From Chondrosia reniformis (Eukaryota > Porifera > Demospongiae > Chondrillida > Chondrillidae), in contig OX359194.1 of NCBI GenBank assembly GCA_947172415.1, positions 4,154,001-4,218,000 on the forward strand: a stretch of 64,000 nt of DNA. The letters run 5' to 3'. The position numbers were made by a program, and so were the translations under genes. The stretch's first letter is position 1. The number at the start of each line of letters is the position of its first letter. This document shows, in pieces, positions 1,672 to 44,954 of the stretch. Under the pieces are notes generated by a model. The model did no database searches. It saw only the letters and a list, made by a program, of their open reading frames with translations, and had not been told where the DNA came from.

Positions 1672-1673
1672 TA

Positions 1674-2113: not shown

Positions 2114-2115
2114 TA

Positions 2116-23600: not shown

Positions 23601-24007
23601 CACATTCTAGTTTTATGGAAACGTTTATGCACTAGTTCTATACCCTAGTTGTAGAACTAATTGTATGTACTAATTTTATGTCCTAGTTGTATGTACTAGT
23701 TGTATGTACTAGTCGTATGTACTAGTCGTATGTACTAGTTGTTAGATCTCATTGTATGTACTAATTATATGTATTAGTAATATGTGTATGTTCTAGTTAT
23801 ATGCGGTAGTTGTATGTTCTAGTTGTACGTACCAGTTGTAAGTACTAATTGTATGTACTACTTCTATTTACAAGTTGCATGTACTTGTAAATGTGTTGTG
23901 TGTACTAGTTGAATGTACTAGTTGAATGTACGATTAACTAGTTGTATGTAGTAGTTTTATGTACTAGTAACCAATTGTATGTATTAGTAGTATTTACTAG
24001 TTGCATG
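20695..24007 (-). repeat. 13-bp satellite array, reverse orientation
   Basis: Units read CTAGTTGTATGTA with many variants (GTAGTACTAG, TTGTAGGTAC). A short unique patch at 23570-23625 includes GGGTTAGGGTTAGAG. No gene. Confidence 0.93.
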
Positions 24008-24728: not shown

Positions 24729-27547
24729 TTGCATGTACTCGTTGTATGTACTAGTTGTTTGAAATTGTTGTATGAACTAGTTATATCTACTAGTTTTAGT
24801 TAATAATTGTATGTTCTTGCTGCATGTACTAGTTGTATGTACTAGTAGTAGATCCTAGCTGTATGTTCTATATAGTTGTTAGGTTATAGTTGCTTGTACT
24901 AGTTTTTGTACTAGTTGTATGTACTAGTTGTATGTACCAATTGTATGTACTAGTTGTATGGGTATCTACTAATATTCTGCACTAGTTGTAGTATTAGTTG
25001 TATGTATTAGTTGCATGTATTAGTTGTATGTACTAGTTTTATATAGCAGTTTTATACACCAGTTGTATGTTGTAGTAGTAAGTACTATTTATATGTACTA
25101 GTTGTATGTACTAGTTATATGTAATAGTTGTATGTACTAATTCAATTTACAAGTTGCATGTACTTGTAACTGCTTGTGTGTCCTAGTTGTGTGTACTAGT
25201 TGCATGTACGATTAACTAGTTGTATGTAGTAGTTTTATGTACTAGTAACTAGTTGCATGTATTAGTTGTAGGTAGTAGTTGTATGTACTAGTTGTATGTA
25301 CTAGTTGTATGTAGTAGATTTATGTAATTGTTCTATGTACTAGTTGCAGAAATAATTTAATGTACTAGTTGTGTGTAATAGTTGTATGTGTTAGTTATAT
25401 GTACCACTTGCATGTAGCAGCTGTATGTACTATATAGTTGTAGGTTCTAGAACTAGTTATAATAGGTACGTGGTAGGTTATAGTTGTATGTACAAGTTGT
25501 ATGGACCAGTTGTATGTACTACTTGTATACAGTAGTTGTGTGTACTAGTTGTATGTACTAGTTATATGTTCTAATTGTATGTACCAGGTTTATGTAGTTG
25601 TAAGTCCTACAATTAGTTATATATACTAGTTGTAGGTACTAGTGGTATATACTAGTTGTATGTACTAGTTGTATGTACTAGTTGTATGAACTACTTGTAT
25701 CTACAATTTATATGTTCTAGTTATATGTATATGTTCTAGTTCTATGTACTAGTTGTAGTACTAGTTACAAGTACTAGTTGTATGTTCTAATTCTATGTAC
25801 TAGTTGTAGTACTAGTTACAAGTACTAGTTGTATGTTCTAATTCTATGTACTAGTTGTAGTACTAGTTACAAGTACTAGTTGTATGTTCTAATTCTATGT
25901 ACTAGTTGTATGAACTAGTTGTATGTACCAGTTGTATGTGCTAGTTATATGTGTATGTACTAGTTCTATGTACTAGTTGTAGAATTAGTTCCTAGTACTT
26001 GTTGCATGTACTAGTTATATGTACTGGTTGTATGTACTAGTTGCATGTATTAGTACTAGTTGTATGTACTAATAACATATACTAGTTTTATGTACTGGTT
26101 GTATATAGGTACTAGTAACTAGATGTTTGTACTAGTTATATATACTAGTTCTATGGACTAGTTGTATCTAGTACTAGTTTTATGTACTAGTTGTATAGAC
26201 TAGTTGTAGTACTACCTTAATGTACTAGTTGTGTGTACTAGTTGTAAGTACTACTTGAATATACTAGTTGTATGGACTAGTTGTATGAACTAGGTGTATG
26301 TACTATATAGTTGTGGGTTCTAGAACTAGTTATACTAGGTACTAGGTAGGTTATAGTTGCTTGTACTAGCTGTTTTTACTAGTTGTATGTACTAGTTGTA
26401 GGTACTAGTTGTAAATGCTAATCATATGTACTAGTTGTATGTACTAGTTGTATATACTAATTGTATGTAATAGTGGCATGAACTAGTTGTATATATGTAC
26501 TATTTATATAAACCAGTCGTATGTGTATTTACTAGTTATATGTAGTAGTTGTGTGTTCTAGTTAGATGTACTAGTTGTGTGTCCTAGGTGTCTGTACTAG
26601 TTTAATGTACTAGTTGTGTGTACTAGTTGTATTTACTAGTTGTGTTTAATTGTTGTAAGTACTAGTTATATTTACTAGTTGTAGTTAATTGTTGTATGTA
26701 CTAGTTGTATATACCAGCTGCATGTATTATATAGTTTTAGGTTCAAGTACTAGTTATGCTAGGTATTAGGTAGGTTGTTTGTTTTAGTTGTATGTACTAA
26801 TTGTATGTACTGGTTGTGTGGACTAGTTTTATGTACTACTTGTATGTACTAGTTATATACAAGTTGTATGTAGTTGTTGGATGTACTAGTTTTATGTTCT
26901 CCTTCTATGTACTAATTTATATATACTACTTATATGTACAAGTTACATGGGTATGTACTTCTTCTATGTACTAGTTGTAATACCAGTTGCAGGTATACAC
27001 TTGTTGTATGTACTAGTTGCAGTTCTAGTTGTATATACTGGTTATGTGGACTAGTTGTATGTACCAGCTGTATGTACTATATAGTTTTAGGTTCAAGTAC
27101 TAATTATGCTAGGTATTAGGTTGGTTGTTTGTTTTAGTTGTATGTACTAGTTGTATGTACTGGTTGTGTGGACTAGTTGTATGTACTACTTGTATGTACT
27201 AGTTATATACAAGTTTTATGTAGTTTTTGTATGTACTAGTTTTATGTTCTCGTTCTATATACTAGTTTATATATACTACTTATATGTACTAGTTACATGT
27301 GTATGTACTTCCTCTATGTACTAGTTGTAAAACCAGTTGCAGGGATATACTTGTTGTATGTACTAGTTGTAGTTCTAGTTGTATGTACTGGTTATGTGGA
27401 CTAGTTGTATGTACCAGCTGTATGTACTATATAGTTTTAGGTTCTAGTACTAGGTATGCTAGGTATTAGGTAGGTTGTGTGTGTTAGTTGTATGTACTAG
27501 TTGTATGTACTGGTTGTATGTACTGGTTGTGTGGACTAGTTTTATGT
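24729..27547 (-). repeat. 13-bp satellite array, reverse orientation
   Basis: CTAGTTGTATGTA units. It includes a short triplication at 25735-25910 (TAGTACTAGTTACAAGTAC phrase three times) and the 350-bp higher-order repeat listed next. ORFs such as 26934-27119 are translations of the repeat. Confidence 0.93.
26700..27540 (-). repeat. 350-bp higher-order repeat of the satellite
   Basis: The phrase ATAGTTTTAGGTTC recurs at 26731, 27081 and about 27431, exactly 350 bp apart, with highly similar sequence in between. This is a younger amplification than the base unit and distinct from the 505-bp higher-order repeat of the left arm. Confidence 0.85.
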
Positions 27548-27767
27548 ACTAATAATAGAATATGGATTCCTTATAAATGCGTTGAACTTATCTTTGGGAT
27601 GGTACATCCTTCGACTTTTAAGCGTATAAAAACGCAGTTGGTTTTCGATTGTTGGTCAATTCTTTGTCAAACCCTGGGGTCTTCCTCAGTGACTGATGGT
27701 TGAGTGGAAGAATAGCCTCTATATATAGAGAACCGTTTTATCCAACCTAAAACAGCCACAACCACCT

Positions 27768-28163
27768 ATGGATATCAAAGGTGTAGTTTACCTAATTCCT
27801 TGCTCTGAGTGTTCTGCAGTCTACATTGGTGAAACTGGAAGGACCCTGAAAGAGAGATTGGCAGAACACAAGCGAGCAGTCAGGATGGAGAATGTGAACA
27901 ACGGTATAGCTGTTCACTCCCTCAAGACTGGCCACTCAATTGCTTGGGACAAGGCCAAGATTACACACAGGGAAACCCTCTGGCAAAGGAGAAAGGTCAA
28001 AGAAGCCATCAGGATCCAGAAGAGTCAGGCGAGAATGAATTTAGATCAAGGTATTTTGTTACATCAAGCCTGGAGACGATTTAATATTCATACTTCCTGT
28101 TTTTCTCATCCTGCTGAGGGTCACATGACAGGAAGTAGAAAGGGTGGGAAAAATTCTCTATAA
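27768..28163 (+). CDS. GIY-YIG endonuclease of Penelope element 3 (best preserved copy)
   Basis: 131 codons starting ATGGATATCAAAGG. IKGVVYLIPCSECSAVYIGE has the GVVY and YIG core and C-X2-C (C12, C15). It is followed by TGRTLKERLAEHKRAVR with the conserved Arg and His, then VNNGIAVHSLKTGHSIAWDK with the His/His pair, then ETLWQRRKVKEAIRIQKSQA and NLDQGI. This is the complete Penelope GIY-YIG module, which nicks the target site. In an intact element it would be the C-terminal domain of the RT protein. Here the upstream RT is gone, so it is a remnant that happens to stay open. It shows what the two other copies have lost. Confidence 0.8.
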   Translation: MDIKGVVYLIPCSECSAVYIGETGRTLKERLAEHKRAVRMENVNNGIAVHSLKTGHSIAWDKAKITHRETLWQRRKVKEAIRIQKSQARMNLDQGILLHQAWRRFNIHTSCFSHPAEGHMTGSRKGGKNSL

Positions 28164-28259: not shown

Positions 28260-29413
28260 CCCACTAGTGGAACATGTCCACACTTCCGGGAATTTTCGAT
28301 AAAAGTTGCTAAATGACACTCTTTTTTAATTTATTCTATTTTACTTTAGAAACATCGTATTGCTAAACAAATTATATAGAATTGAAGCGCTATTCTTTCT
28401 TAATATTTTGGCTACAAGAGCGTCACGATTGCAGGCTTTTAAAAGAAGGTGAGCAGCCGTAAGTGATAGGTGCCAAATCGCCAAAAATGTTTTATTAGAC
28501 TGTGGAAAATACGAATACAGGATAAATGGTGACACCAATCTATGAAGGATAATGATATTTAATGATTGTATTGTAGTCCTTCATATCCAGTTAAACAAGG
28601 GAATATTCCAGGAGTATACATACAACTTTTAGGCTGTTACTTACTGAAGAGATTGATGTCAAAAAATGGTTAGATATACAATCCTCCACTGTCTAATAAT
28701 TGGTTTGTTTTCCATTTGTCTCTTCTCCTTCGAGTAATGGTATTGTCACATGATTATCGGCTAAAATGAGTAGTATAGCTTAGCCAATATACAATAATTT
28801 TTTATGATGTTGCTTATGCACCCAAATATTTGGTAACACGTTATACAAACATTAGACTTCCGAAGTTGATATGTCAAGTAAGGCTTCTCAGTAGCGATAC
28901 AGTTTCCTTGATCAAAGTTTTTGTTGTTGTAAGAGGTAAGTGGAAACAGTAAGCATATTGCAAGTCTACTAATATCTATGTATTTATCAATGGCGAAAAT
29001 GTATGAGCAATTAACGAAGTATAATCAAAAGAAAATTGAACGTTTTGGTCACGTAAGCCTTAATTCCCCAGCTATTATAATACGTAAATAATAGCCGAGG
29101 AATTAAGGCTTACATTGTATTCTTTTTTGATTATTAACGAACCATAATCAAAAGAAAAATAGAATATTTCGGTTATGTAGGCCTTTATTGGTCTTCCTTC
29201 GTCATTGGCCTTCCTCCGGTATACTATATAAATTGCTCTAAGTTATCACAATTGATAACGACTAGTGATGACTCGTGACGCTTCAGTGGCTGGTGCTCCG
29301 CTTCACGCTCAGGTCACACGCTAGAGACACTTTCGCCTGGAATGTGACACCTCTGTAGGCGCTAATATGACGATTTACAAAAATTAGAAATTTGTAGACA
29401 TGTTATACATGCA
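28260..29413 (+). mobile_element. Element A: non-autonomous relative of transposon B
   Basis: A 1.15-kb insert in the Penelope terminal repeat. The left 0.75 kb is closely similar to 32280-33100 (shared CACTCTTTTTTAATTTATT, GTGACACCAATCTATGAAG, CCCAAATATTTGGTAACA). The right end AGACATGTTATACATGC resembles B's right end GGACATGTTCCACATGC. It carries the same exon-like stretch (VAYAPKYLVTRYTNIRLPK, ending in a GTAAGAG/GGTAAGT donor region) but no start ATG and none of the main ORFs. It is therefore an internally deleted derivative that would need B-type transposase. Confidence 0.75.
29021..29134. other. Hairpin in element A
   Basis: ATAATCAAAAGAAAATTGAA...to...TTGATTAT forms a long imperfect inverted repeat containing GCCTTAATTCC / GGAATTAAGGC. 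The equivalent hairpin is at 33098-33230 in B. Confidence 0.65.
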
Positions 29414-29450: not shown

Positions 29451-32130
29451 CCAAAGATTCTATGTACTACTTGTATGTACTAGTTGTATGTACTAATTGT
29501 ATTGACCTGTTGTATGTACTAATTGTGTGTTCTTGTTGTATGTATTATTTGTATATACTAGTAATATTTATATTTACTAGCTGTAGTTACTAGTTGTATG
29601 AACTACTTGTATGTACTCGTTCTTTGTACTAGTTCTATGTACTATTTGTATGTTCTAGTTATTTGTGTATGTGCTAGTTATATGTAGTAGTTGTGTGTTT
29701 TAGTTATATGTACTAGTTTTGTGTACTAGTTGTATGCACTAGTTGTATGTACTAGTTGTTGTATGTACTAGTTGTATGTAATTGTTGTAAGTACTAGGTA
29801 TATTTACTAGTTGTAGCTACTAATTGTATGTACTAGTTGTATGTATTAGTTGTATATACTAGTTGTATGTACAAGTTGTATGCATCAACTGTGTATACTG
29901 TGGAGTTGTAGGTTCTAGTACTAGTTATACTAGGTACTAGGTAAGTAATAGTTGTATGTACTAGTTATTTGTACTAGTTGTATGTACTAGTTATATGTAC
30001 TAGTTGTAGTGATAGTTGCATGTACTAGTTGAATGTTCTAGTTGTATGTAATTGTTGTAAGTACTAGTTATATTTACTAGTTGCAGTTACTAATTGTATG
30101 TACTAGTTGTATGTACTAGGTGTAAGTACTAGTACTAGTTATATTTACTAGTCTTAGGTACTACTGGTATTATGTAGTAGTTTTATGTACTAGTTATATA
30201 CTTGTTGTATGTACTATTTTTATGTTCCAGGGTTATGGAATCGTTCTATGTACTAGTTCTAAGTATTAATTTTAATACCAGTTGTATGTGCTAGTTGTAT
30301 GTACTAGTTGTTTGTACTAGTTGCATGTACTAGTTGTATGTACTAGTTGCATGGACTAGGTGTTTGTACTAGTTGTATGTACTATTTATATGTACTAGTT
30401 ATATTTGTATGTGCTAGTTATATGTAGTAATTGTGTGTTGTGTTTTATATATACTAGTTGTATGTACTAGTACTGGTTATATTTCTTAGTTGTAGGTACT
30501 AGTTGTGTGTGCTAGTTGTATGTACTGTTGTATGTACTAGTAACTAGTTGTATCTATTAGTTGTATGTAATAATTGTATGTCCTAATTGTATATATGTAC
30601 TAGTAACAACTAGTTGTATGTACAAGTTGTATGAACTAGTAACTAGTTGTATGTATAAGTTCTATGTTATAATTGTAAGTACTAGTTGTATGTAAAAGTA
30701 ACTAGTTATATATACTAGTTGTATGTACTGGTAACTAGTTGAATATACTAGTTGTAAAGAGTAGTTGAATGTACTAGTTGTAAGTACTAATTGTATGTAC
30801 TAATTTTATGTACTTGTTATATGTACTAGTAGTATGTTCCAGTTTTATGTACTAGCTATATGTTTATATACTGGTTATTTGTTCTGATTGTATGTACTAG
30901 TTGTATGTACTAGTTATTGGTTGTATGTACTAGCTGTATGTAGTTTAGATGGATGTAAGAGTTATTTGTACTAGTTAAATGTTTATGTTCTGGTTATATG
31001 TACAAGTTGTATATACTAGTTATATGTACTAATTCTGTGTAATAGTTATGTACCAGTTGTAGGTACTAGTTGTATATACTAGTTATATATACTAGTTGTA
31101 TGTACTATTAACTATCTGTATGTCCTAGTTGAATGTAGTAGTTGTATGTAGTAGTTGCCTGTATTTATATGTACTAGTTTTATGTACTAGTTGTGTGAAC
31201 TAGTTGTATGTACTAGATATATATACTGGTTGTATGTACTAGTTGTGTGAACTAGTTGTATGTACTAGATATATATACTGGTTGTATGTACTAGTTGTAC
31301 GTACCACTTGTATGTATTAGTAACTATATGTATGTACTAGTTGTATTTACTAGTTGTATGTACTACATGTATGTACTAGTTGTGTGTACTTGTAACTATC
31401 TGGGTGTCCTAGTTGAACGTATTAGTTATTTGTACTAGTTTTATGTAGTTATATGTGCTAGTTTTATGTCCTAGGTTTGTGTAATTGTAGTACGTACGAG
31501 TTATATTTACTACTTGTAGTTACTAGTTTTATGTACAGGTTGTATGTAGTAGTTGTGTGTACTAGTTGTTTGTACTAGTAACTAGTTGTATGTACTACAT
31601 ATATATACTGGGTGTATGTACTAGTTGTATGTACTAGTTGTGTGTACTAGTTCTATGTACTAGTTGTATGTAGTAGTTGAATGTACTAGTAACTAGTTGT
31701 ATGTACTAGGTATATGAACTAGTTGTATCTACTAGTCGTATGAACTAGTTGTATATATGTACTTTGTGTAAGTTCTAGTAACAATCTGTATTTACTAGTT
31801 GTAGTTACTAGTTGTAAGTACTAGTTGTATGTACTAGTTGCATGTTCTAGTAATTAGTTGTATTTACTAGGTGTATGTACTGGTTGTGTGTACTAGTTCT
31901 CTGTACTAGTTGTATATACTAGTTGTATATACTAGAAACACTCTGCCTTTACTAGTTGTAGTTATTAGTTAAATATACTTGTAACTATCTGTATGTCCTA
32001 GTTGAATGTATTAGTTGTATGTACTAGTTGTATGTAGTTATGTGTACTAGTTTTATGTACTTGTTGTGTGTAATTGTTGTGTGTCCAACTTAAATTTACT
32101 ACTTGTAGTTACTAGTTTTATGTAAAATTT
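29451..32130 (-). repeat. 13-bp satellite array, reverse orientation
   Basis: CTAGTTGTATGTA units. The block at 30890-31060 is nearly the same as 43257-43420, 12.4 kb away, showing long-range duplication within the satellite. No gene. Confidence 0.93.
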
Positions 32131-32273
32131 GTTTGTAGATTGCAAACATCAACATGAACGGAAGGACTTGGTGGTACAACTGAGGCATAGACAACTGCCT
32201 GATTTGTTGAAGTGATCGAGGCAAAGTAGGAATTGAGACTAGATGCAGATGGAGTGTTAGTGACTGATGACTG
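32131..32273. other. Unique flank left of transposon B
   Basis: About 140 bp of non-satellite, non-coding sequence between the array and the inferred left terminus of B. The region 39785-39972 on the far side is its probable counterpart, so B may be nested in an older insert. Confidence 0.45.
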
Positions 32274-32880
32274 CGCAAGTGAAACATGTCAACACTTCCG
32301 AAAATTATCTATAAAAGTCGTCAACTAACACTCTTTTTTAATTTATTGTATTTTACTTTAGAAACATTGTATCATTGAACAAATTGCATAGAATTGAAGC
32401 GCTATTCTTTCTTAATATTTTGGCTACAAGAGCATCACGATTGCAGGCTTAAAGGAGAAGGTAAGCGGCTGTAAGTGATAGGTGCCAAATCGGAAAAATG
32501 TTTTACCAGACAGTGGAAAATACGAAAATAGAATAAATGGTGACACCAATCTATGAAGAATAATGATATCTAATGATTGTATGTATACTCCTTTTAAATT
32601 CCCTTTAGTTTTTGAATTATAATCGAAAACGTTTTTTCATACCTTTATTGGCCGCCTCTAGTACTTCATATCTCAGTTAAACAAGGGAATATTCCAGGAG
32701 TATACATATAACATTTAGGCTGTTACTTACTGAAGAGATTGATGTCAAAAAATGGTTAGATATACAATCCTCCACTGTCTGGTAAGCGGTTCATTTTCCA
32801 TTTGTCTCTTCTCCTTCGAATATAGGTATTGTCACGTGACAGTCAGCCTAATACTAGTAGTATTTCCAAGCCGTCATACA

Positions 32881-33015
32881 ATGACGTCTTATTACGTTGC
32901 ATATGCACCCAAATATTTGGTAACATGTTATACAAACATTACACTTCCGAAGTTGATATTTTACGTAAAGCTTCTCGATAACGATACAGTTTCCTTGATC
33001 GAAGTTTTTGTTGTC
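32881..33015 (+). CDS. Candidate first exon of the element B protein
   Basis: ATG at 32881 opens a frame (TSYYVAYAPKYLVTCYTNIT, then LPKLIFYVKLLDNDTVSLIE) also present in element A with conservative changes, which supports coding. Two overlapping splice donors follow: GTAAGAG at 33016 and GTAAGTG at 33023. Using the first, 45 codons end in phase 0 and join in frame to the ATG at 33604 after a textbook acceptor (TTTCCTTTGAATGTTTAG). The second donor would give an early stop. The 588-nt intron contains the hairpin at 33098-33230. The fold is unknown, possibly a small beta barrel. The splice model is inference. Confidence 0.5.
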
Positions 33016-33097
33016 GTAAGAGGTAAGTGGAAACAGTAAGCATATTGCATGTCTGCTAATATCTATGTAATTATCAATGGCGAAGACATATGAGCCT

Positions 33098-33230
33098 ATA
33101 ATCAAAAGATAAATAGAACGTTTCGGCCACGTAGGCCTTTATTCCTCAGCTATTATTTATTTACTACGTTAATAATAGCTGGGGAATTAAGGCCTACAAG
33201 GCCGAAACGTTTTATTTATCTTTTGATTAT
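33098..33230. other. Long hairpin inside the candidate intron of B
   Basis: ATAATCAAAAGATAAATAGA...and its inverted copy ending TATCTTTTGATTAT form arms of about 55 bp containing CGTTTCGGCC / GGCCGAAACG and AGCTATTA / TAATAGCT. It is preserved in element A at 29021-29134, so it is an original part of the family rather than a private insertion. Confidence 0.75.
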
Positions 33231-33603
33231 ACTACTTTAGAACGTTTAGGTCACATAGGCCTTCCTCCTCTACTATAAGTTAATTGTTCATAAGTTTTCG
33301 CAAATTGATAATTTGACAACGTAGTAATAAGCCTCTACAATATCACCTATGTAATTCAACAGAGAAATATACCAATCGTCATTCTTGCTTTGATAAAATA
33401 GCTTTTAGATAGCTATCATGCCCATAACATGAGGCTAGTTTTGCATGCAGATGTAGACTTAGTGACATTAAGATTCTTAAAAAGCCAAACCTAATTATAA
33501 CTGCGATCCATAAAGCTTAAGGCAAAATTTACTGCGACACTCATAAGTAGAAATAGTAAGACAGAATAGCATTAATTCATTTTGCTTTCCTTTGAATGTT
33601 TAG

Positions 33604-34599
33604 ATGCCATTTGTGAAAATTTCGGGAAGATCTTTTAACTGTGGCTTTTGCCGCACATTGGTGTATGAATGTCTACCTAAAAGGAGTGCTGGAACATCTG
33701 AGGAGAAGGAGAGTAAAAGCAAGACTGAGAAGGTTGAGCCCAATATTGTAGAAAGATTTCAAAGCTTATTTGTGGGACCGCAATTTTTGATTGGCCCAAA
33801 CTATTTTGAGAAAAAAAGTCTTAAATCCATTAGTTTGTTTGAATCCCACTGTAAAATGATAGAAAAAGCTTTTGCAAAAGGTTTTAATACTTCAACATTT
33901 AAGGAAAACTATGTAAAAGCTTTTTCTTCTTTCAATTGGTCTGAATTGTCCTCGTCTGAAAAGGAAAGACATTCTTTGTCAAACTGTGTTGCTTGTGCTA
34001 TGCAGTTTCCAGAAATCCAGAAAACCTTTCCACTGAAGCCTTTTTTTGAAATATCAGATTATGAGAAAGAAAATGCTTCAAAGGAAACATGTAATGGCAA
34101 AAAACAGAATTTTGCTAAGCCCCTGAGTGACCATTCTAGAAATAGGTGTTACAGTAAAGGGGATTTTAATAAGTTAGTTAAAGAAGCACAAAAGGAGTTA
34201 ATCCTAGAGTTTAAGGGTATACTTGATTCTAGTACCCTTCAAGCTGTTTATTCAAATAATATTAGTTTAAGCAAGGCTAAGAGCTTTCGCAAAGAACAAT
34301 TTTTTGAGCCACCCACAGATGACAAAGCCCCAAAAAGGAAACGGTATCCACTGAGACCACATGAATGCAGCAAATTTCCAGAACTTTGTGAATGCTTAAA
34401 AACATGGGACCCTAATACTAAATTTATAGCTAGTGATATAGCTAAATTGTTTAATGTCAGTGCTACTGATGGCAGTAATAAAATTAGGTTACTTGCTCAA
34501 GAAATTAATCCTTCAATTCCAGGGCTTGAAATAGTTCCAAAGCCAAAGTCTACAAAAAAGATTCGAAAGCACATCTATGGCAGTACCTGTACCTCCTAA
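33604..34599 (+). CDS. Element B ORF1, unrecognised basic protein with CxxC
   Basis: 331 codons. It has a Cys pair near the start (NCGFCRTLVYEC), a charged linker and a region rich in Lys/Phe (FVGPQFLIGPNYFEKK, SLFESHCKMIEKAFAKGF). C-terminally, a segment (ASDIAKLFNVSATDGSNKIR then LLAQEINPSIPGLE) could form a winged-helix or helix-turn-helix. No confident family. It overlaps ORF2 by 23 bp in another frame. Either the two are one protein separated by a one-base indel (the frames meet at 'PPNKRRL'), or ORF2 starts at its own ATG. The codon content is ordinary and the frame has no internal stops over 1 kb, so it was under selection recently. Confidence 0.7.
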   Translation: MPFVKISGRSFNCGFCRTLVYECLPKRSAGTSEEKESKSKTEKVEPNIVERFQSLFVGPQFLIGPNYFEKKSLKSISLFESHCKMIEKAFAKGFNTSTFKENYVKAFSSFNWSELSSSEKERHSLSNCVACAMQFPEIQKTFPLKPFFEISDYEKENASKETCNGKKQNFAKPLSDHSRNRCYSKGDFNKLVKEAQKELILEFKGILDSSTLQAVYSNNISLSKAKSFRKEQFFEPPTDDKAPKRKRYPLRPHECSKFPELCECLKTWDPNTKFIASDIAKLFNVSATDGSNKIRLLAQEINPSIPGLEIVPKPKSTKKIRKHIYGSTCTS

Positions 34600-36370
34600 C
34601 AAAAGGCGATTAGTAGACATTGACCGTACCCTTGTCCAAAGTGGTGTATTAAATGAAGGCATACCATGTATTCCCATTACTTTAGTACGATATCACAAAG
34701 GAGAAAGGGTTGAAACTGTTGCCCAAAGTCGTAAATTTCCTTTGTTTGACATTCAAAATGGTTTACTGAAGGCCCATGAAAAATTTATGAGGCTTCATAC
34801 TGATGTTAAGATTGAAGCAATGAGTAAGGAATATATTCTAGGTGTACTTAGGAAAGGGGCAGGATATTCTATGAATCAATTTGAAAATTTGAGTTTGGAG
34901 GAATTGAAACACCTCCTTTCCAAATATGAGAGGACAAGGACTATCTGGATATGGCATGACCACTCAAGTCTAGCATCACATGGTATTTTAGCCATAATGG
35001 TTGGGGTTATGTATGACCCTATTGTGTTCATGACTGAAAATGAAATAGGTAAAAATGTAGAAGAGTTTCTCCAAGAAGGAGAAATTCATGTAGTTGCTCA
35101 TGGGTCCTCATCATTACAAGATCAGGCTACTTTAATTCCTGAGCGACTCTCAGAATTGGATGGTCTAAGTGATGAGGTTCTAAGTTCAACTGGAATCAGA
35201 ATTACTGATAGGCTGCGTTTCTTCAAGGGTGATAAACCTGCAGCACAATTTGAAGCTGGAATCACATGTGGTGGAAATTATCCTTGTGTTGCTTGTGTTT
35301 GTCACCGTAATAGTTTTGCAGATTTTCCACATACAGTTAAGTGTGAACAAAGGACGCTGCAGAAAAATCTTAAAGTGGCTACAGGAGGACACTTTGGTAA
35401 AGTTCCTGGTAAGATAAAGTACTACGAAGAATTAAACACAAATCAGTTAAGAATTGAGTTAGAGAAAAGGGGTGTTAAGGACTATCCGTCTGATAAAAAG
35501 GGTAGATTAAATGTCCTAAAGGAAATGCTCTGGGGAGTGCAAAGAGTTCCCTCTTTACTGATGATGGCACCTGAAAGTTCATTAGATGAGTTTCATCTAG
35601 ATAGCTACAGTGTCCTTCCTTGTGAGCCTCTCCATGATTTAAAGGGCTATCTAGGTGCTGTCTTTAGACAATTGCCCTCGGTTTTGGGGCCTTCAAGGCT
35701 AAAAACTTCATTGTGTGATTATTTTAGTACCTTGTGGAAGAAGGCAAATTTGTATGGTTCTGACCTTCGTAAAGCACTAGTAGATGTAGCTCACATATTC
35801 CACTTATATGATACTCCAAGTACTGTGGCTACTTTTATTTGCTGTCTTGTTCAACTGTCCAATATTCTGTATTCAAAAGATTCTAACAGAAGTCCCAAAC
35901 AATGCCTACAGTTTTATAATTGTGCATATATTGTTCATGAGCTGCATTGTGAGCTGTTTGGTGACACAATGATCTCAAATTATTTTCATGCTTTACTTGT
36001 GCATGGTCCTATGCAACATGAAGTTGTTAGCTGCAGGTCAACCAACACTGAAAATGAGGAGAGAATCTTCAAGAGTGCTGAATCAGCAGCAAAGTGTACT
36101 GATCACAAGCCAGAAAACATGCAACCAGGGATACTGAAAAGACTTCAATGTAAAAGGAATCAAAAAACCAGCAACCCTTTGTTAAAATTGAGAAAGGAAA
36201 ACTCAAGAATTAGTCAGTCTGCTTCAAAACTTCCTCCCTACCCAGGCACTATCTTCAAGGAAGAGTTTATTAATAAGGGCCTGAATTGTTACATTTCCGT
36301 AATGCTACAATGGAAGGTGTTGCTGAAAGGTCCGAATCCTGTTGGAAGGAGGTTATTGAAAAGAAAATAA
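34577..36370 (+). CDS. Element B ORF2, transposase-like protein (GD-PAxQFE / CxxC / SAP-like / EPLHD family)
   Basis: 597 codons from ATG at 34577. Landmarks are IWIWHDHSSLASHGILAIMV (123-142), KGDKPAAQFEAGITCGGNYP (217-236) followed by C237-X2-C240-X-C242-H, a SAP-like segment (LNTNQLRIELEKRGV then GRLNVLKEML, about 286-318), GVQRVPSLL, and CEPLHDLKGYLGAVFRQLP (349-367). I recall the same order in many unnamed cnidarian and sponge proteins. The layout (acidic residue after a beta strand, GD-PA with a zinc-binding insertion, then a late D/E) resembles RNase H-fold transposases of the CMC/KDZ type. That is inference from pattern. SAP motifs bind DNA. The C-terminal tail after 36290 runs out of frame with ORF3, suggesting another indel. 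It may be catalytically intact. Confidence 0.65.
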   Translation: MAVPVPPNKRRLVDIDRTLVQSGVLNEGIPCIPITLVRYHKGERVETVAQSRKFPLFDIQNGLLKAHEKFMRLHTDVKIEAMSKEYILGVLRKGAGYSMNQFENLSLEELKHLLSKYERTRTIWIWHDHSSLASHGILAIMVGVMYDPIVFMTENEIGKNVEEFLQEGEIHVVAHGSSSLQDQATLIPERLSELDGLSDEVLSSTGIRITDRLRFFKGDKPAAQFEAGITCGGNYPCVACVCHRNSFADFPHTVKCEQRTLQKNLKVATGGHFGKVPGKIKYYEELNTNQLRIELEKRGVKDYPSDKKGRLNVLKEMLWGVQRVPSLLMMAPESSLDEFHLDSYSVLPCEPLHDLKGYLGAVFRQLPSVLGPSRLKTSLCDYFSTLWKKANLYGSDLRKALVDVAHIFHLYDTPSTVATFICCLVQLSNILYSKDSNRSPKQCLQFYNCAYIVHELHCELFGDTMISNYFHALLVHGPMQHEVVSCRSTNTENEERIFKSAESAAKCTDHKPENMQPGILKRLQCKRNQKTSNPLLKLRKENSRISQSASKLPPYPGTIFKEEFINKGLNCYISVMLQWKVLLKGPNPVGRRLLKRK

Positions 36371-36984
36371 CACTTCCTATTATCATGGAAAGAGAAAATG
36401 AAAGGGAAGGTAACATATCTGATATTTCCTCTGCTAACTGTGTGAATGTTTCAAGTGAACCTGAGTTTTCATTTGAAGCAACATTTATCCAGCCTACTTT
36501 GGCTTCTCCTAAGTCTTCCACTCCAAATAGGAAAACAATTCAGAGTGAGGAAAGTTCTGAAGCATCTGAAAATGGTGAAGATGGTTTTGTCCAAAAGGAA
36601 AATAGTAATGGAAATGATGAGCAAAATCCTAACCTGAACACAGAAGGTACTGTAGATGTACAAGTAGATGAGGTACTGAATAGTTGTCCTGAAGTATCTC
36701 TTGAATCATCAGTGTGTAAAGCTATCGCCAAATTGCTTGGCTCTTCCACTGATTTGAATGTATTTAATCAATTGCGGTGTATGTATAAGCAAGGAGATAG
36801 GCATATGTTGCCTTCTCAGAAGGAAAGGTATCATTCACTAGCCCGTTACTTTAGGAAAAAGATCTCAGCTAAGAAACGTAGTTTAGATCTCCAAATAGCC
36901 CAAGTATCTCCCAATAATACCATGTACAGTGAGTATGCTAAGGACATAAAGCTTTGCTTGAAATTGGTATGTAATCTTCATTAG
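36286..36984 (+). CDS. Element B ORF3, acidic C-terminal continuation
   Basis: 232 codons overlapping ORF2 by 85 bp. The listed start is TTG, and the first ATG is nine codons in. The N-terminal part is acidic and Ser/Glu/Asn rich (SEESSEASENGEDGFVQKEN), a likely disordered linker. The end is a compact basic region (VFNQLRCMYKQGDRHMLPSQ, then ERYHSLARYFRKKISAKKRS). It is most simply the C-terminal part of the ORF2 protein after a frameshift or small intron. Directly 3' lie a 25-bp minisatellite, AATAAA and a histone-type stem-loop. No family recognised. Confidence 0.6.
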   Translation: MLHFRNATMEGVAERSESCWKEVIEKKITLPIIMERENEREGNISDISSANCVNVSSEPEFSFEATFIQPTLASPKSSTPNRKTIQSEESSEASENGEDGFVQKENSNGNDEQNPNLNTEGTVDVQVDEVLNSCPEVSLESSVCKAIAKLLGSSTDLNVFNQLRCMYKQGDRHMLPSQKERYHSLARYFRKKISAKKRSLDLQIAQVSPNNTMYSEYAKDIKLCLKLVCNLH

Positions 36985-37106
36985 AGAGTCGTTGTGTGGC
37001 TCTATTATAGGAGTCGTTGTGTGGCTCTATTATAAGAGTCATTGTGTGGCTCTATTATAAGAGTCGTTGTGTGGCTCTATAAGAGTCGTTGTGTGGCTCT
37101 ATTACA
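36985..37106 (+). repeat. 25-bp minisatellite (five copies)
   Basis: GAGTCGTTGTGTGGCTC followed by TATTATAA, five copies, one with a G-to-A change and one 3 bp shorter. Each unit can form a small GAG.C / G.CTC stem. It lies in the 3' UTR of the ORF1-3 gene. Confidence 0.9.
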
Positions 37107-37112
37107 ATTTCT

Positions 37113-37134
37113 AATAAAGGCTTTTTTCAAAGCC
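37113..37134 (+). terminator. AATAAA plus histone-type 3' stem-loop
   Basis: AATAAA (37113-37118) is followed directly by GGCTTTTTTCAAAGCC (37119-37134), a 6-bp stem with a TTTC loop, and then ATCACTTCTCAGAAGA. Replication-dependent histone mRNAs end in such a 6-bp stem and 4-base loop followed by an A-rich flank and a purine-rich element. An identical stem-loop occurs at 38828. Confidence 0.55.
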
Positions 37135-37262
37135 ATCACTTCTCAGAAGATTGGCCATGCATATGCTAATGAGTCTATCTGTTCAGATCAACATTCTACC
37201 CAGCCATGCATATTCCACTTCATTGTTATGCTGAAATGTATGTCAGTCATTAGTACATACTT

Positions 37263-37338
37263 CACTAATTTACTGGTAATGAGGATGCATGAAAGACTTA
37301 ACAAAGTCTAGGTATCCCTCTTTGCTGGCTGGTTAGTG
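37263..37338 (+). other. Repeated structured motif, copy 1
   Basis: CACTAA...TTAGTG close a stem, with inner pairs GGAT...ATCC and AGACTT/AAGTCT around TAACAA. A homologous, compensating copy is at 49873-49953. It may be a structured RNA or a DNA hairpin. No known family assigned. Confidence 0.5.
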
Positions 37339-37369
37339 TTCAATGTGCATAACATCAAGTCATTTTAAA

Positions 37370-38262
37370 TTTCCCAACACAATACATACAGTTAAAGGAC
37401 TTATACCTCAAAAGTATGGCTTCCCAAAGTGCTGAAGATTTGTCCATATGGCTTCATTTCTAGGAACACCACCAAATGTCCCTGAATGGACCATTTCTTT
37501 GGTGCTGGTCCCAATAGTGAACCACATATGGAACAGCATAGATGAACAGACAAATACAGCTAAAGTTCCTTACATGTGCAAAATCATTTTAGCAAAAGTT
37601 TAGGTGACACAACACAATGCATACAATTAAAGGACTTACCTCAAAAGTATGGCTTCCCAAAGTGCTGAAGATTTGTCCATATGGCTTCATTTCTAGGAAC
37701 ACCACCAAATGTCCCTGAATGGACCATTTCTTTGGTGCTGGTCCCAATAGTGAACCACATATGGAACAGCATAGATGAACAGACAAATACAGCTAAAGTT
37801 CCTTACATGTGCAAAATCATTTTAGCAAAAGTTTAGGTGACACAACACAATGCATACAATTAAAGGACTTATACCTCAAAAGTATGGCTTCCCAAAGTGC
37901 TGAAGATTTGTCCATATGGCTTCATTTCTAGGAACACCACCAAATGTCCCTGAATAGACCATTTCTTTGGTGCTGGTCCCAATAGTGAACCACATATGGA
38001 ACAGCATAGATGAACAGACAAATACAGCTAAAGTTCCTTACATGTGCAAAATCATTTTAGCAAAAGTTTAGGTGACACAACACAATGCATACAATTAAAG
38101 GACTTACCTCAAAAGTATGGCTTCCCAAAGTGCTGAAGATTTGTCCATATGGCTTCATTTCTAGGAACACCACCAAATGTCCTTGAATGGACAATTTCTT
38201 TGGTGCTGGTCCCAATAGTGAACCACATATGGAACAGCATAGATGAACAGACAAATACAATT
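37370..38262. repeat. 234-bp tandem repeat, four copies
   Basis: The phrase AAAAGTATGGCTTCCCAAAG recurs at about 37410, 37643, 37878 and 38111 (periods 233-235). Copies are more than 95 percent alike by eye, apart from TTACC/TTATACC and a few substitutions. Minus ORFs of 65-67 codons in two copies are identical in most residues only because the repeats are. Confidence 0.9.
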
Positions 38263-38425
38263 AAATGATACTAATTTACACGCAAGACAATAACAATAAA
38301 GTGAAAACAAGGTAACAATACGTTGATAATAAGGTCATATCTTCACCTTGAGTGCAAGGTTAAGGTGGTGAGAAAGTGAGTAAGCAGCCTATAATGGGCG
38401 TGATGACACACCCTCCAACTAACAG

Positions 38426-38433
38426 TATAAATA
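38426..38433 (+). promoter_or_regulatory. TATA box of the small gene in B
   Basis: TATAAATA lies 41 bp before the ATG at 38474, a spacing that allows a very short 5' leader, as in histone genes. The upstream 150 bp are unique and AT/GC-mixed. Confidence 0.5.
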
Positions 38434-38473
38434 GACTTTACCCAGCATAGCTACAACAGCTGATACAGCAAAA

Positions 38474-38809
38474 ATGGCAACCTTCAACTTCAGAAATCTT
38501 GACAAATGCCAGATAACTATAATAAACCCTAAAGAAAACCGAGGAAAAGGAGGAAAAGGAGAAAAGAGAGCCAAGACCAAGAAGCCAGGGAACCTACCAA
38601 TGCTGTGTAGGTTCCAAGAAAAATGTAAAAAAGGTCCTAAAAAGGAGAGTGTGAATACAGGCATGTGGAACCTCACCTGCTTGAGGGCTGCAAGAGGCCA
38701 TTCATGTTGTGTTGAGGGAGGCCCTGTACAAACCCGAAGTGCAGGTTTGTACATCTGGAGGAGGAAAAGGAACCAGCTGCAAAAAAGAGAAAAGAAGAAA
38801 AATAAATAA
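38474..38809 (+). CDS. Small lysine-rich ORF with histone-gene-like layout
   Basis: 111 codons from ATG. The order is an N-terminal segment (ATFNFRNLDKCQITIINPKE), a Lys/Gly/Arg-rich stretch (NRGKGGKGEKRAKTKKPGN), a Cys-containing middle (MLCRFQEKCKKGPKKE) and a very basic tail (WRRKRNQLQKREKKKNK). It is not a histone in any frame I checked. The layout, however, copies that of a replication-dependent histone gene: TATA box 41 bp upstream, no intron, stop, then a histone-type stem-loop 19 bp after the stop. It could be a nucleic-acid-binding accessory protein of B. The middle may be frameshifted, since its composition changes. No family recognised. Confidence 0.5.
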   Translation: MATFNFRNLDKCQITIINPKENRGKGGKGEKRAKTKKPGNLPMLCRFQEKCKKGPKKESVNTGMWNLTCLRAARGHSCCVEGGPVQTRSAGLYIWRRKRNQLQKREKKKNK

Positions 38810-38827
38810 AAAGACGAACTAACAAAC

Positions 38828-38843
38828 GGCTTTTTTCAAAGCC
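38828..38843 (+). terminator. Histone-type 3' stem-loop of the small gene
   Basis: GGCTTTTTTCAAAGCC preceded by AACAAAC and followed by ACAACATGTCAAAAGAT. The 6-bp stem, TTTC loop, ACAACA flank and nearby purine-rich AAAAGA are close to the animal histone consensus (GGCTCTTTTCAGAGCC-ACCA). It is identical to the stem at 37119, although surrounding sequences differ. AATAAA motifs also lie at the stop codon. Confidence 0.6.
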
Positions 38844-38954
38844 ACAACATGTCAAAAGATTTCAACAATCTAAACAAACTAAAATGAAACGCTACATTAC
38901 ACAAATCATCTGAAGACTCTATATTAAAACACTACGTTTCACAAATCAACTAGA

Positions 38955-39505
38955 AATCTAAAATGATACATTACACAAAAGTCTAAAATGATACATTACA
39001 CAAAAGTCTAAAATGATACATTACACAAAAGTCTAAAATGATACATTACACAAAAGTCTAAAATGATACATTACACAAAAGTCTAAAATGATACATTACA
39101 CAAAAGTCTAAAATGATACATTACACAAAAGTCTAAAATGATACATTACACAAAAGTCTAAAATGATACATTACACAAAAGTCAAAAATGATACGTTACA
39201 CAAAGGTCTGAAATGCTACGTTACAACGTAGCATTTCAGACTTTCTAGATAATTTGTGTAACATCAACTAGAAAGTCTAAAATGATGCGCTACACAAAAG
39301 TCTAAAATGATACATTACACAAAAGTCTAAAATGATACATTACACAAAAGTCTAAAATGATACATTACATAAAAGTCAAAAATGATACGTTACACAAAGG
39401 TCTGAAATACTACGTTACAACGTAGCATTTCAGACTTTCTAGATGATTTGTGTAACGTCAACTAGAAAGTCTAAAATGATACGTTACACAAATCATTTAA
39501 AAAGT
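38955..39505. repeat. 25-bp minisatellite with embedded palindromes
   Basis: Unit TCTAAAATGATACATTACAC plus AAAAG, about 9 near-perfect copies from 38965 to 39190 and more after 39280. Two palindromes (about 39207-39241 and 39398-39432, arms TCTGAAATGCTACGTT and its complement) interrupt the array at about 190-bp spacing, so a larger unit is itself duplicated. Confidence 0.88.
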
Positions 39506-39784
39506 CTAAAAGGAAATGTTACGTTACATAAAACATCTAACCTTCTCGTTCTTCTACTGAGGATTTTCGATTTCTAGTCCTTCGCCGACCCTCGCCGTAC
39601 AAGGGACTAATGAATCGATTACGTTTTCCACTCTGCTGCGTCATCATGACAGTTTTTTATAATATTATTAACTTCATGTGCGAGTCACATGACATTCACG
39701 CTACTTCCTGTAAAATGTTCAAATATTTCGCACCTAAAAGGGGCTTCAAAAAATCGGAACTATTACGGACATGTTCCACATGCG

Positions 39785-39972
39785 TGAGAAGAAAGACCAT
39801 TGTATTTGCAAACTTTAATCTCTGACCACAGGTTAGAGGGACTGACTTTCTTTACCACAAGATCAGAGACATAAGACTTCTGGGCTGATCTCTGCCATTT
39901 TGTCACTTGATTGTGAAATTTTCTGTACTTTTATAGTCAGTATATAGGTGGGTCTGCAGGAACTTCCGATGC
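39785..39972. other. Unique flank right of transposon B
   Basis: About 190 bp with no 13-bp units or coding sequence, between the inferred B terminus and the returning satellite. Confidence 0.4.
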
Positions 39973-42900
39973 AGTTATATGTACTAGTTGTATGTACTAG
40001 TTGGTGTACTAATTCTATGTACTAGTTGTATGTACTAGTTGTATGTATTAGTAAATAAATTAGTTGTATGAACTAGTTGTATGAACACGTTGTATGTACT
40101 AGTTGTATGTATTAGTAACAATCTGTATTTACTAGTTGTAGTTACTAGTTGTATATACTAGTTGTATGTACTAGTGCTATGTACTGATTGTGTGTACTAG
40201 TTGTATATACTAGTCGTATATACTAGTTGTATATTCTAGTTGTATGTACTAGTTGTATGAACTAGTAACACTCTGCATTTACCGGTTGTAGTTACTAGTT
40301 GTATATACTAGTTGTATGTACTAGTTGCATCTACTAGTAACTAGTTGTATGTCCTAGTTGTAGGTACTAGTTGTGTGTACTAGTTCTATGTACTAGTCGT
40401 ATATACTAGTTGTATGTACTAGTTGTATGTACTAGTTGTGTGTACTAGTTGTATGTACTAGTCGTATATACTAGTTGTATGTACTAGTTTTATGTACTAG
40501 TTGTGCGTAATTGTTGTATGTACTACTTATATTTACCAGTAGTAGTTACTAGCTGTATGTACTAGTTGTCTGTACTAGTAACTAGTTTTATGTATTAGTA
40601 ACTAGTTGTATGTACTAGTAACTAGCTGTATGTACTAGATGTATGTACTAGTGGTGTGTACAACTTGTATGTACAAGTAACTAAATGTATGTACTAGTTG
40701 TAGTTACTAGTTTTATGTACTAGTTGTATGTACTAATTGTATGTACAAGTAACTGGATGTATGATCTAGTTGTATGTACTAGTTGTATGTCCTAGTTATA
40801 TTTACCAATTGTAGTTATTAGTTGTATGTACTAGTTGTATGTACTAATTGTTTGTACTAGTAACTAGATGTATGTACTAGGTGTATGTACTTGTTTTATG
40901 AACTAAATACTAGTTGTATATACCAATTGTATGTACTAAATATAAGTTCTAGTTGTATGGACTAATTGTTTGTACTAGTTGTGTATAGTATTTATATGTA
41001 CTAGTTATAAGTGTATGTCTAGTTTTATGTAGTAGTTGTGTGTTGTGTGTTATATATACTGGTTGTATGTTGTAAAAACCAGTTGTATGTATTACTTGTA
41101 TGTATTAGTTGTATGTACTAGTTATATGTACTAGTTGTATATATGTACTAATAACTGATCGTACAAACTAGTTGTATGTGCTAGTTATATGTGGTAGTTG
41201 TGTATACTGGTTGCATGAACTAGTCGTATGTACTAGGTGCATTTACTAGTTTATGTACTAGGTGGGTCTAATTGTTGTTTGTACTAGTTATAATTACAAG
41301 TTGTCGTTAGATGTTGTATGTACTAATCGTATGAACTAGTTGTATGTTGTAGTAAATAGTTGTATGTAGTAGTTGTATGTTCTAGTTATATAAACTAGTT
41401 GTATGTACTAGTAACTAGCTGTATGCACTAGTTGTTTGTGCTAGTGTTTTGTATTAGTACTGGTAATATTTAATAGTTGCTTGTGCTACTTGTATCTACA
41501 AGTATAAATTACATTTACTCTTTGTAGGTACTAGTTCTATGTACTAGTTGTATTTGTATGTACTAATTGTATGAATATACTAGTTTTATGTACTAGTTCT
41601 ATGTACTAGTTGTAGTACTAGTTTAATGTACTAGTCGCATGTACTAGTTGTGTGTACTGGTTGTATGCACTAGTTGTATGTCTTGTGTTATGGAATCGTT
41701 CTATGTGCTAGTTGTATGTGCTAGTTGTAGTACAAGTTGTATGCGCTAGTTGTATGTACTAGTTGTATGAACTAGTTGTATGTACTAGTTGTAGGTACTA
41801 TTTATATGTACTAGTTATTTGTGTATACCCTAGTTGTATGTTCTAGTCTTATGGAATCGTTCTGTTTGTCCTAGATACACGTTGTATGTGCTAGTTGCTA
41901 GTTGTATACACTATTTGTATGTATTAGTTATATGTTCTAGTAGTATGTACTAATTGTATGGCCTCCTTTAATGTACTAGTTGAATGTATATATTAGTTAA
42001 GAACTAGTTGTATGGACTAGTTGTATGTACTAGCTGTATTTACTTCTTCTATGTGCTAGTTGTATGTAATAGTTGCATGCACTAGTTGTATGTACCAAGT
42101 TGTATGTACTTGTTATATGTACATGTTGAATGAATTAATTGAATTTACTTTGTGTGTATACTAATTGCATGCACTAATTGTCTTTACTAGTTGTATGTAC
42201 TAGTTGTATGAACTCTTTCTATGTACTAGTTATATGTGTATTTTTAGTTATACGTATATATCCTAGTTATATGAACCACTTGGATGTACTAGTTATATGT
42301 ACTAATTGTAAGTACTAGTTGTATGTACCAGTTGTATGTACTAGTTGTATGGACTAGTTGCATGTATTAGTTGAATGCACTAGTTTTATGTACTAATTGT
42401 ATGGACTCTTTCTAGGTACTAGTTATATGTGTATTTTTAGTTATACGTATATATCCTAGTTATAGGTACCACTTGGATGTACTAGTTATATGTACTAATT
42501 GTAAGCACTAGTTGTATGTACAAGTTTTATGTACTAGTTGTATGAAATAGTAGTATGTAGTAGCTGTATATATTAGTTGTATATTTCAACAAGTTCAACT
42601 AGTAGAATTTACTACTTATATGTACTAGTTGTATGTACTAGTTGTATTTACTAGTTCTATGCACTAGTTGTAGGTACTAGTAACTAACTGTATGTACTAA
42701 ATGTATATACTAGTTGGATGTACTAGCTTTATGTAGTTATATGTAATACTTGTATGTAAGACTTGTGTGTAATTGTTGTATGTACTAGTAATATCTACTA
42801 GTTGTAGTTACTAGTTGTATGTACTAATTGTATGTACTAGTTGTATATACTAGTTTTATGTACTAGTTGTATGTACTATTTGTATGTACTAGTAAATATA

Positions 42901-43812
42901 TGTATGTACTCGTTGTAGGTACTAGTTGTAGGTACTAGTTGTATGTACTAGTAACTAGTTTTATGTACTAGTTATGTGTACTACTTTTATGTGCTAGTTA
43001 AATGTACTTAGTTGTATGTACTAGTTGTATGAACTTGTAACCATATGGATGTACTAGTTATAGGTACTACTTGTATGTACTAGTTGTGTGTAATTGCTGT
43101 ATGTACTAGTTATATTTATTAGTTGTAGTTACTATTTGTATACACTAGTTGTTTTTACTAGTTGTGTATTCTAGTTCTATGTACAAGTTGTATATGTCAC
43201 TAATTTTATGTACTAGTTGTGTGTAATTGCTGTGTGTACTAGTTATATTTACTAGTTATTGGTTGTATGTACTAGCTGTTTGTAGTTTAGTTGTATGTAA
43301 GAGTTATTTGTACTAGTTATATGTTTATGTTCTGGTTATATGTACAAGTTGTATATACTAGTTATATGTACTAATTCTGTGAAATAGTTATGTAACAGTT
43401 GTAGGTACTAGTTGTATGTACTAGTAATATATACTAGTTGTAAGTACCAGATACTAGTTGTATGTACTAGTTATATATACTAGTTGTAAGTACCAGATAC
43501 TAGTTGTATGTACTAGTTGTATGTACTAATTGCATGTACTAGTTTCTAGTTGTAAGAACTAGTTGTATATACTAGTTATATGATCTAGTTATATGAGTAT
43601 GTAATGGTTATATGTACCAGTTGTGTGTAACATCTGGATGTAATAGTTGTATGTACTTTAGTTGTATGTACTATTGTAAGTACTCGTTATTAGTTGTATA
43701 GTCTAGTTGTATGTACTAGGACTAGTTATATTTACTAGTTGGAGGTTCTAGTTGTATGTACTCAATTGTAAGTAGTAGTTGCATGTTCTAAACGTATATA
43801 CTAATTGTATGT
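39973..43812 (-). repeat. 13-bp satellite array, reverse orientation
   Basis: CTAGTTGTATGTA units, fairly regular between 40.1 and 40.9 kb. A duplicated block of about 180 bp at 42209 and 42389 shares CTAGTTATATGTGTATTTTT. No gene. Confidence 0.93.
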
Positions 43813-44950
43813 ACTAGTACATACAACTAGTTCATACAATTATTAAAAATAACCAGTACATGCAACTAATTACTAGTACTTACCACTACTACATACAACT
43901 AGCAGATAAAGTTAGTAAATATAGTTTGTTAATAGTACATACACCTAGTACATACAACTAGTACATACAACTAATACATATAACTAGTACATATGATAAC
44001 TACATACAACTACTATATATAACTAGTACATAGAACAATTACACACAACTAGTATATACATAAAACTATTTACATAAAACTACATACAACTAGTATATGC
44101 AACTAGTTACTAGTACATCCAACTAGTACATCAAACTAGTACATACAACTAGTAGATATAACTAGTTACTAGTACATACAACTAGTAAATACAAATAGTC
44201 CATACATCAATTTCACAAAACTAGTACATAAAGTTAATACATAGAACTATATAGTTCATACAATTAGTACATACAACTAGTTACTAGTATAATCCAACTA
44301 GTACATACAGCTAGTACATCCAACTAGTACACATAACTAGAACATACAGCTAGTACATCCAACTAGTACATATAACAAATTTCACACAACTAGTACATAC
44401 AAGTAGTACATATAATTACATACAACCAGTTCAAACAACTAGTACAAACCATTAGTACATACAACTACTACATACAACTAGTGCATATATCTAGTTACTA
44501 GTACATACAACTAGTACATACAATTAGTAACTACAACTAGTAAATATAACTACTACATACAGCTAGTAAAAACAACTAGTAAATACAACTAGTACATACA
44601 CCTAGTATATACAACTAGTTCATACAACTAGTTCATACAACTATTACATATAACTAGCACATGCAACTAATTACTAGTAGATACCGCTACTACATACAAT
44701 TAGTACATACAACTAGTACATACATCTAGTACATACAACTAGTTCATATAACTAATGCAAAAAACTACAAACTAGAACACCTATACAACAAGTTCGTACA
44801 ATTAGTATATTATACTAGTCCATAGAACTAGTACATACAACTAGTACATTCAAAGAGTACATAAAAGTAGTACATACAACTAGTTACTACTACATAAAAC
44901 TAATACATACAACTAGTAACTACAAATAGTAATTAAAATTAGTAGATACA
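43813..44950 (+). repeat. 13-bp satellite, orientation switched back to forward
   Basis: At about 43813 the units change from CTAGTTGTATGTA to TACATACAACTAG within one unit ('gtatgtactagtacatacaac'), with no spacer. The forward block is similar to the left arm: 43860-44030 to 720-890 and 44026-44300 to 5790-6060. Confidence 0.92.
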
Positions 44951-44954
44951 AAAA

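Follow-up and report, generated by a model that had tools for sequence, protein, structure and literature searches.

A terminal-inverted-repeat transposon family of the sponge Chondrosia reniformis and the probable place of its unclassified transposase in the CMCT clade

Introduction

Is a 7.5-kb stretch of sponge DNA that encodes pieces of an unclassified protein a mobile element and, if so, what kind of transposase does it carry? The question is raised by a 64,000-nucleotide region of the Chondrosia reniformis genome (assembly GCA_947172415.1, contig OX359194.1, positions 4,154,001 to 4,218,000 of the forward strand; G000:C6:4154001-4218000 in our numbering), referred to here as the window. 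A first-pass annotation had proposed that positions 32274 to 39784 of the window are a DNA transposon with a transposase of a possibly undescribed superfamily, and that a deleted relative lies nearby. We searched the genome (117,379,552 bases in 15 contigs) for further copies and for related proteins. The element has the architecture of an ordinary transposon, and its transposase is unclassified. Motif order and spacing suggest that the family is probably a still unnamed lineage within the CMCT clade, moved by cut-and-paste DDE transposition.

Results

Ends, copies and target duplications

The whole element measures 7,511 bp (32274..39784, forward strand), an extent given by the ends common to its copies and by its target-site duplication (TSD). 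The 5' terminal inverted repeat CGCAAGTGAAACATGTC (32274..32290, forward strand) and the 3' terminal inverted repeat GACATGTTCCACATGCG (39768..39784, reverse strand) are identical at 15 of 17 bases, as the annotation had claimed, and are flanked by a left (32272..32273) and a right (39785..39786) copy of the 2-bp target duplication TG. At least 153 stretches of the genome were found using the first 977 bp as query. Scoring covered 40 of the 265 candidates; among 40 long matches, the window included, 38 started at query position 1-5. The last 262 bases, in which position 255 is the final base of the element, yielded 48 stretches, and the 18 long matches besides the window all stopped at 254-259.

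We assembled 15 copies including that of the window. Wherever their ends were readable they were the same ends, both being present in 10 copies; the other 5 lack one end and hence stand outside the TSD count. Identical 2-bp duplications flank 9 of these 10 copies, two of the ten being short (TG in four, TA in three, CA and AC in one each), and the tenth, at C4:4.33 Mb, has CG on one side and GA on the other, which match only if its last base was lost. Both ends were visible in 28 short copies, of which 20, additional to the ten above, were read at both ends. An identical dinucleotide was present directly outside the ends in 18 of the 20 and an identical trinucleotide in none, while the dinucleotide match expected by chance is 0.077 per site at the composition of the window. 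TA was the commonest target among the 18 matched sites (8), followed by TG and CA (3 each) and by CT, AA, AG and GG (1 each). A paralogous empty site was also found, in which 239 of 240 bases match the joined flanks and a single TG stands where the filled site has two; it is a neighbouring unit of a 247-bp satellite, about 0.9-1.1 kb from the insertion. Inverted ends common to dispersed copies, together with a constant 2-bp TSD, identify the element as a terminal-inverted-repeat DNA transposon of about 7.5 kb, and the proposal made for this locus was borne out.

Short copies and element A

Short copies, of about 1.1-1.4 kb, retain 0.9-1.0 kb from the 5' end of the element together with its 3' tip, as expected of derivatives mobilised in trans. 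Within the window, element A (28262..29413, forward strand) is a decayed non-autonomous relative that matches positions 5-925 of the large element in three blocks of 85-87% identity, and its ends show 1 and 2 mismatches to the terminal patterns of the family. It had been described as sharing the ends and the 5' part of the large element. The relationship stands, but element A starts at 28262 rather than 28260 and its ends are mutated; it was rejected as a copy with a TSD, no target duplication being seen. Directly before it lies a fragment of a GIY-YIG endonuclease (27768-28163; Pfam E 9e-6), an enzyme found at the end of Penelope-like elements.

The encoded protein

Three open reading frames (ORFs) on the forward strand, ORF1 (33604..34599), ORF2 (34577..36370) and ORF3 (36286..36984), are pieces of one 1,183-aa protein split by frame breaks. 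ORF1 is the N-terminal piece and starts like the intact frame, ORF2 runs from residue 336 onward and holds the predicted catalytic part, and ORF3 is the C-terminal piece and ends IKLCLKLVCNLH like the intact frame. The window copy is dead, a frame-broken long copy of an element with intact copies elsewhere in the genome. The 1,183-aa protein is encoded in a single intact frame in three copies (C3:4.69 Mb, C3:8.2 Mb and C7:2.69 Mb); two of the proteins differ by 3 residues and the third by 28. All 3 differences between the two near-identical copies alter residues. Comparison of the C3:8.2 Mb and C7 copies gave a nonsynonymous divergence (dN) of 0.010 and a synonymous divergence (dS) of 0.036, and third positions account for 29 of the 55 differences; this ratio and third-position share provide modest evidence that the transposase frame is under constraint.

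The motifs that the first-pass annotation had recognised in ORF2 are present, but ORF2 is a mere piece of the frame-broken protein, covering only about residues 336-909, and its SAP-like segment is weak: SAP is the sole Pfam match of ORF2 (E 0.2, below cut-off) and falls at residues 102-117, before the first Asp. ORF2 shows 94-97% amino acid identity to six other copies over 574-577 residues, and related proteins of about 29-58% identity are encoded in the same genome. An alignment of paralogs (14 rows, several of them from decayed copies whose translation passes through frame breaks and stops) contains conserved blocks in the order WxDHS, FFxGD, CxxC, EPLHxxKG, HHEL, FHxxLxH and NTExEE. In the numbering of the intact protein, the candidate catalytic residues are D463 in WHDHS (34958..34960), which is conserved in the paralogs, D554 in GDKPA (35231..35233) and E830 in NTENEE (36059..36061). 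Candidate zinc ligands are C572 and C575 of the CxxC motif (35285..35296) and H806 and H811 of the H(4)H motif (35987..36004), and a functional role may also be suspected for H688, the histidine of EPLHDLKG (35633..35635). All of these lie on the forward strand.

A second lineage

A second transposase lineage (L046), at 34-42% amino acid identity to the window family (lineage 1), also resides in elements with defined ends, CAC...GTG. The 5' end of the L046 element was placed where copies begin to match. The 5' pattern of this lineage, CACAGGCGCCATATGAC, occurs 134 times in the genome at up to 2 mismatches, compared to 3 times for the reversed control, and the 3' pattern, GTCATAAGGTACCAGTG, occurs 148 times compared to 18 for its control. 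Two transposase-bearing copies are flanked by TSDs, namely C10:3386217-3393132 (6,916 bp, TC/TC) and C4:4142211-4149112 (6,902 bp, AT/AT). Identical 2-bp flanks were seen at 8 of 9 sites, the site without matching flanks being C9:3382427-3389705, or at 7 of 8 after removing C14:3498918, a probable duplicate whose 5' flank is that of the C7 site. The counts were made outside the palindrome C2:5219014-5221647, which has inverted flanks. The chief ground for identifying the protein family as a transposase family is that two diverged lineages both lie in terminal-repeat elements with 2-bp duplications. With the empty site and the short derivatives, this strongly supports the reading of ORF2 as a piece of a transposase within a terminal-repeat transposon that has non-autonomous derivatives.

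The palindrome itself (C2:5218990-5221670; L111, L112) carries lineage-2 ends, and its flanks are exact reverse complements, so that it represents a large palindrome and not a normal insertion.

Proposed mechanism

The most likely account of the ends, target sites and motifs is the following sequence of events. The element-encoded 1,183-aa protein, acting as a DDE-type transposase, would bind and cleave the inverted ends (CGC...GCG). Excision would proceed through an active site of predicted RNase-H type formed by D463, D554 and E830, accompanied by a putative CxxC/HxxxxH zinc module, and joining to the target with a 2-bp stagger would produce the duplications of 2 bp, TA being a frequent site. 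The short derivatives described above, which keep both ends, could have been moved in trans by the same protein.

Similarity searches

The intact 1,183-aa protein gave no match in Pfam-A at E up to 10. Ten families were matched in a Pfam scan of 11 alignment members, each by one member only and with a best E of 0.028, and these were taken as chance. ORF2 matched one chain in the PDB, at a non-significant E of 0.77. No significant match to a known superfamily was found in Pfam-A or the PDB. Neither the Plavaka model (PF18759; intact protein, 11 alignment members and genome) nor the RAG1 model (PF12940; intact protein and 11 alignment members) gave a match, and the silence of PF12940 in the genome does not show absence, since the control was also silent. 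Candidate relatives in IMG/VR (1 pattern match with one protein, 41 with a three-row alignment) and in GTDB contigs (86 pattern matches) were rejected, none being confirmed by tblastn. The family is described in none of the literature titles and opening lines of abstracts that were listed, a search outside which lie Repbase, Dfam and most subscription journals.

The CMCT signature

The CMCT clade comprises EnSpm/CACTA, Mirage, Chapaev, Transib, Plavaka, ESTA and Lanisha together with RAG1, and is defined, in the available text of its description, by the residues D, D, C(2)C, H(3-4)H and E and by the conservation of two Cys and three His; its duplications are of 2-5 bp and its ends mostly CA...TG (PMC12730594). 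In our alignment, the order D, D, C(2)C, His, H(3-4)H, E is present at 75% conservation. The strict pattern D..D(15-21)CxxC..[LM]H..H(3-4)H(12-22)E appeared in 0 of 20,000 column shuffles, and a looser form in 5 of 20,000. The 2-bp TSD of both lineages falls inside the range of the clade, and the CAC...GTG ends of lineage 2 fit the CA...TG seen in most of its members, whereas those of lineage 1, to which the window element belongs, are CGC...GCG.

We compared the spacing of these residues with that in mouse RAG1, using letters taken from PDB chains, a fragment without the first Asp. The corresponding RAG1 residues are presumably D708, C727, C730, H937, H942 and E962. The cysteines follow the second Asp by 18 and 21 residues in the sponge family and by 19 and 22 in RAG1, the H(4)H spacing is the same in both, and the distance from the last His to the Glu is 19 as against 20. 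In block scans, the best place for the H(4)H block in RAG1 was FHKTLAH at 936, and none of 200 shuffles scored as well. The best place for the second-Asp/CxxC block put its cysteines on C727 and C730 (p 0.055).

Several results weigh against placing the family in this clade. The motif pattern is lost at 85% conservation, the spacing ranges were chosen after the family had been inspected, four alignment rows have CxC, and the first Cys is missing in two decayed rows. In RAG1, neither the LH block nor the long H-to-E block fell on the expected site, and the fragment used holds nothing that corresponds to the first-Asp block. Scans against EnSpm proteins gave no significant best match at a homologous site, while the LH block matched EnSpm L094 off-site and beat 200 of 200 shuffles (25 block-target tests). 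Because this off-site match is equally strong, single block-scan results of such size are not decisive, and our confidence in the assignment is slightly reduced. No significant profile similarity to known CMCT proteins was detected: the family profile had 0 matches among PDB chains, as had the EnSpm profile, and HHalign against six EnSpm proteins of the genome returned a probability of 0.07% and E 0.71 with the motifs unaligned, a weak negative because the profiles are shallow (effective number of sequences, Neff, 1.7 and 2.4). Profile similarity does not place the family in the clade, and in the block scans the match of the H(4)H block to RAG1 is the only one that stands out at its proper site. 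The lineage-1 ends, CGC...GCG rather than CA...TG, point the same way.

Discussion

We consider the assignment to CMCT the most likely one. Its grounds are the order and spacing of the motifs, the TSD and the ends of lineage 2, not a significant alignment. The explanation that departs furthest from it, an immobile host gene family or satellite-embedded repeat with ends that arose by chance, could draw on the fact that several copies lie in or beside 13-bp, 45-bp and 247-bp satellites; it is extremely improbable given the exact termini, the 2-bp TSDs in two lineages and the empty site. Transib duplicates 5 bp, unlike the 2 bp of the sponge family, and no family member matched the RAG1 model. 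Kolobok and KDZ elements (Zisupton, Kyakuja) are DDE transposons, some of them in animals, and the Kolobok duplication is TTAA. That of Zisupton is 8 bp and that of Kyakuja 7 bp in the available text of PMC12730594, as against 2 bp here.

Repbase may list the family, as EnSpm or otherwise. The reading that it is not new, but an EnSpm/CACTA or Mirage family already catalogued from animals, overlaps with the assignment to CMCT, which is a statement on mechanism and clade, and appears to us rather unlikely. Mirage does have 2-bp duplications. Target duplications of animal CACTA elements are 2 bp as well (SmTRC1 in 7 of 14 copies); these elements carry a D-x-[LM]-H-x3-L-G motif resembling EPLHDLKG, and the sponge family shares with SmTRC1-type elements, as far as the available text describes them, a CxxC near the second Asp, D/E-x-[LM]-H and internal tandem repeats, but differs in having WHDHS rather than DG at the first Asp, in ends that are not CCC and in the lack of PF02992 (Transposase_21) (PMC1636069). 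The true EnSpm elements of this genome are found by PF02992, with 61 matches of which 54 exceed the cut-off; none overlaps a listed place of the family, compared by eye, and the model matched neither the intact protein nor any of the 11 alignment members. Alternatively, the family could be a separate, undescribed DDE superfamily outside CMCT, whose D/C/H/E order arose by convergence or is a distant feature of RNase-H transposases with zinc inserts. The lack of any significant Pfam-A or PDB match, the failure of HHalign and block scans against EnSpm to reach significance at the right sites, and the lineage-1 ends would fit this reading, which is nonetheless unlikely in view of the ordered signature absent from all strict shuffles, the fall of the H(4)H block on FHKTLAH of RAG1, and the lineage-2 ends and 2-bp TSD, which fit the published CMCT features (PMC12730594, available text). 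The notion of a possibly undescribed superfamily is supported only in part. No known family matched significantly, but the signature published for CMCT is this very D/D/CxxC/LH/H(4)H/E series, which makes a hitherto unnamed lineage in a known clade likelier than a wholly new kind. The family resembles the clade in residue order, in the further His, in the 2-bp TSD and in the lineage-2 ends, and differs from it in its lineage-1 ends and in having no detectable profile similarity to the EnSpm, Plavaka and RAG1 models. A broader conjecture, which we put forward tentatively and think somewhat doubtful, is that of an undescribed DDE superfamily with a 2-bp TSD, a remote sister of RAG1/Transib-EnSpm with several lineages in early-branching animals, a good many animal proteins now called 'uncharacterised' being its transposases or their domesticated descendants. 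The first-pass annotation also pointed to cnidarian proteins with this signature; such a link is tentative, our search of animal genomes having covered the sponge alone.

Recognition of the family as transposases gives an unannotated animal protein family defined ends, a TSD, candidate catalytic residues and intact frames for testing. In practice, it could allow correction of gene sets in which such proteins are counted among host genes and of repeat libraries that lack them. Should the RAG1-like spacing be due to descent, the family would supply an outgroup for the origin of the zinc-bearing DDE domain of the RAG recombinase, the enzyme of antibody-gene recombination.

Other features of the element and the window

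The element contains three tandem arrays, of 25 bp (36985..37104), of 233 bp (37375..38259) and, close to its 3' end, of 25 bp/194 bp (38957..39492). A hairpin with 61-nt arms that are 92% complementary (33097-33231) lies in the common 5' region, and other family copies show similar self-complementary matches. An ORF of 111 aa encoding a basic protein (38474-38809) is present in the 3' part, and similar sequence occurs in other copies; because its frame is broken at about residues 55-58 or diverged in most of these, it was rejected as a second gene.

Much of the window is occupied by a very large, degenerate 13-bp satellite (ATGTACTAGTTGT or its complement; 1-8576, 12934-15585, 20702-27551, 29461-32124 and 39973-44951), sequence of which flanks several short elements of both lineages. 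Arrays of a 45-bp satellite lie at 48935-49606, 51007-51876, 54203-54638 and 61513-62718; this satellite also occurs elsewhere in the genome, where it hosts the transposon copy at C3:4.69 Mb. Broken reverse transcriptase frames (RVT_1) are present on the reverse strand at 8851-12764 and 17996-18685 (E 3e-11 and 3e-12, and 4.5e-6, below cut-off). STPR peptide repeats (PF21107, E 1.6e-19) are encoded at 58593-59189, in an ORF adjoined by one composed of a 42-bp repeat (57969-58580).

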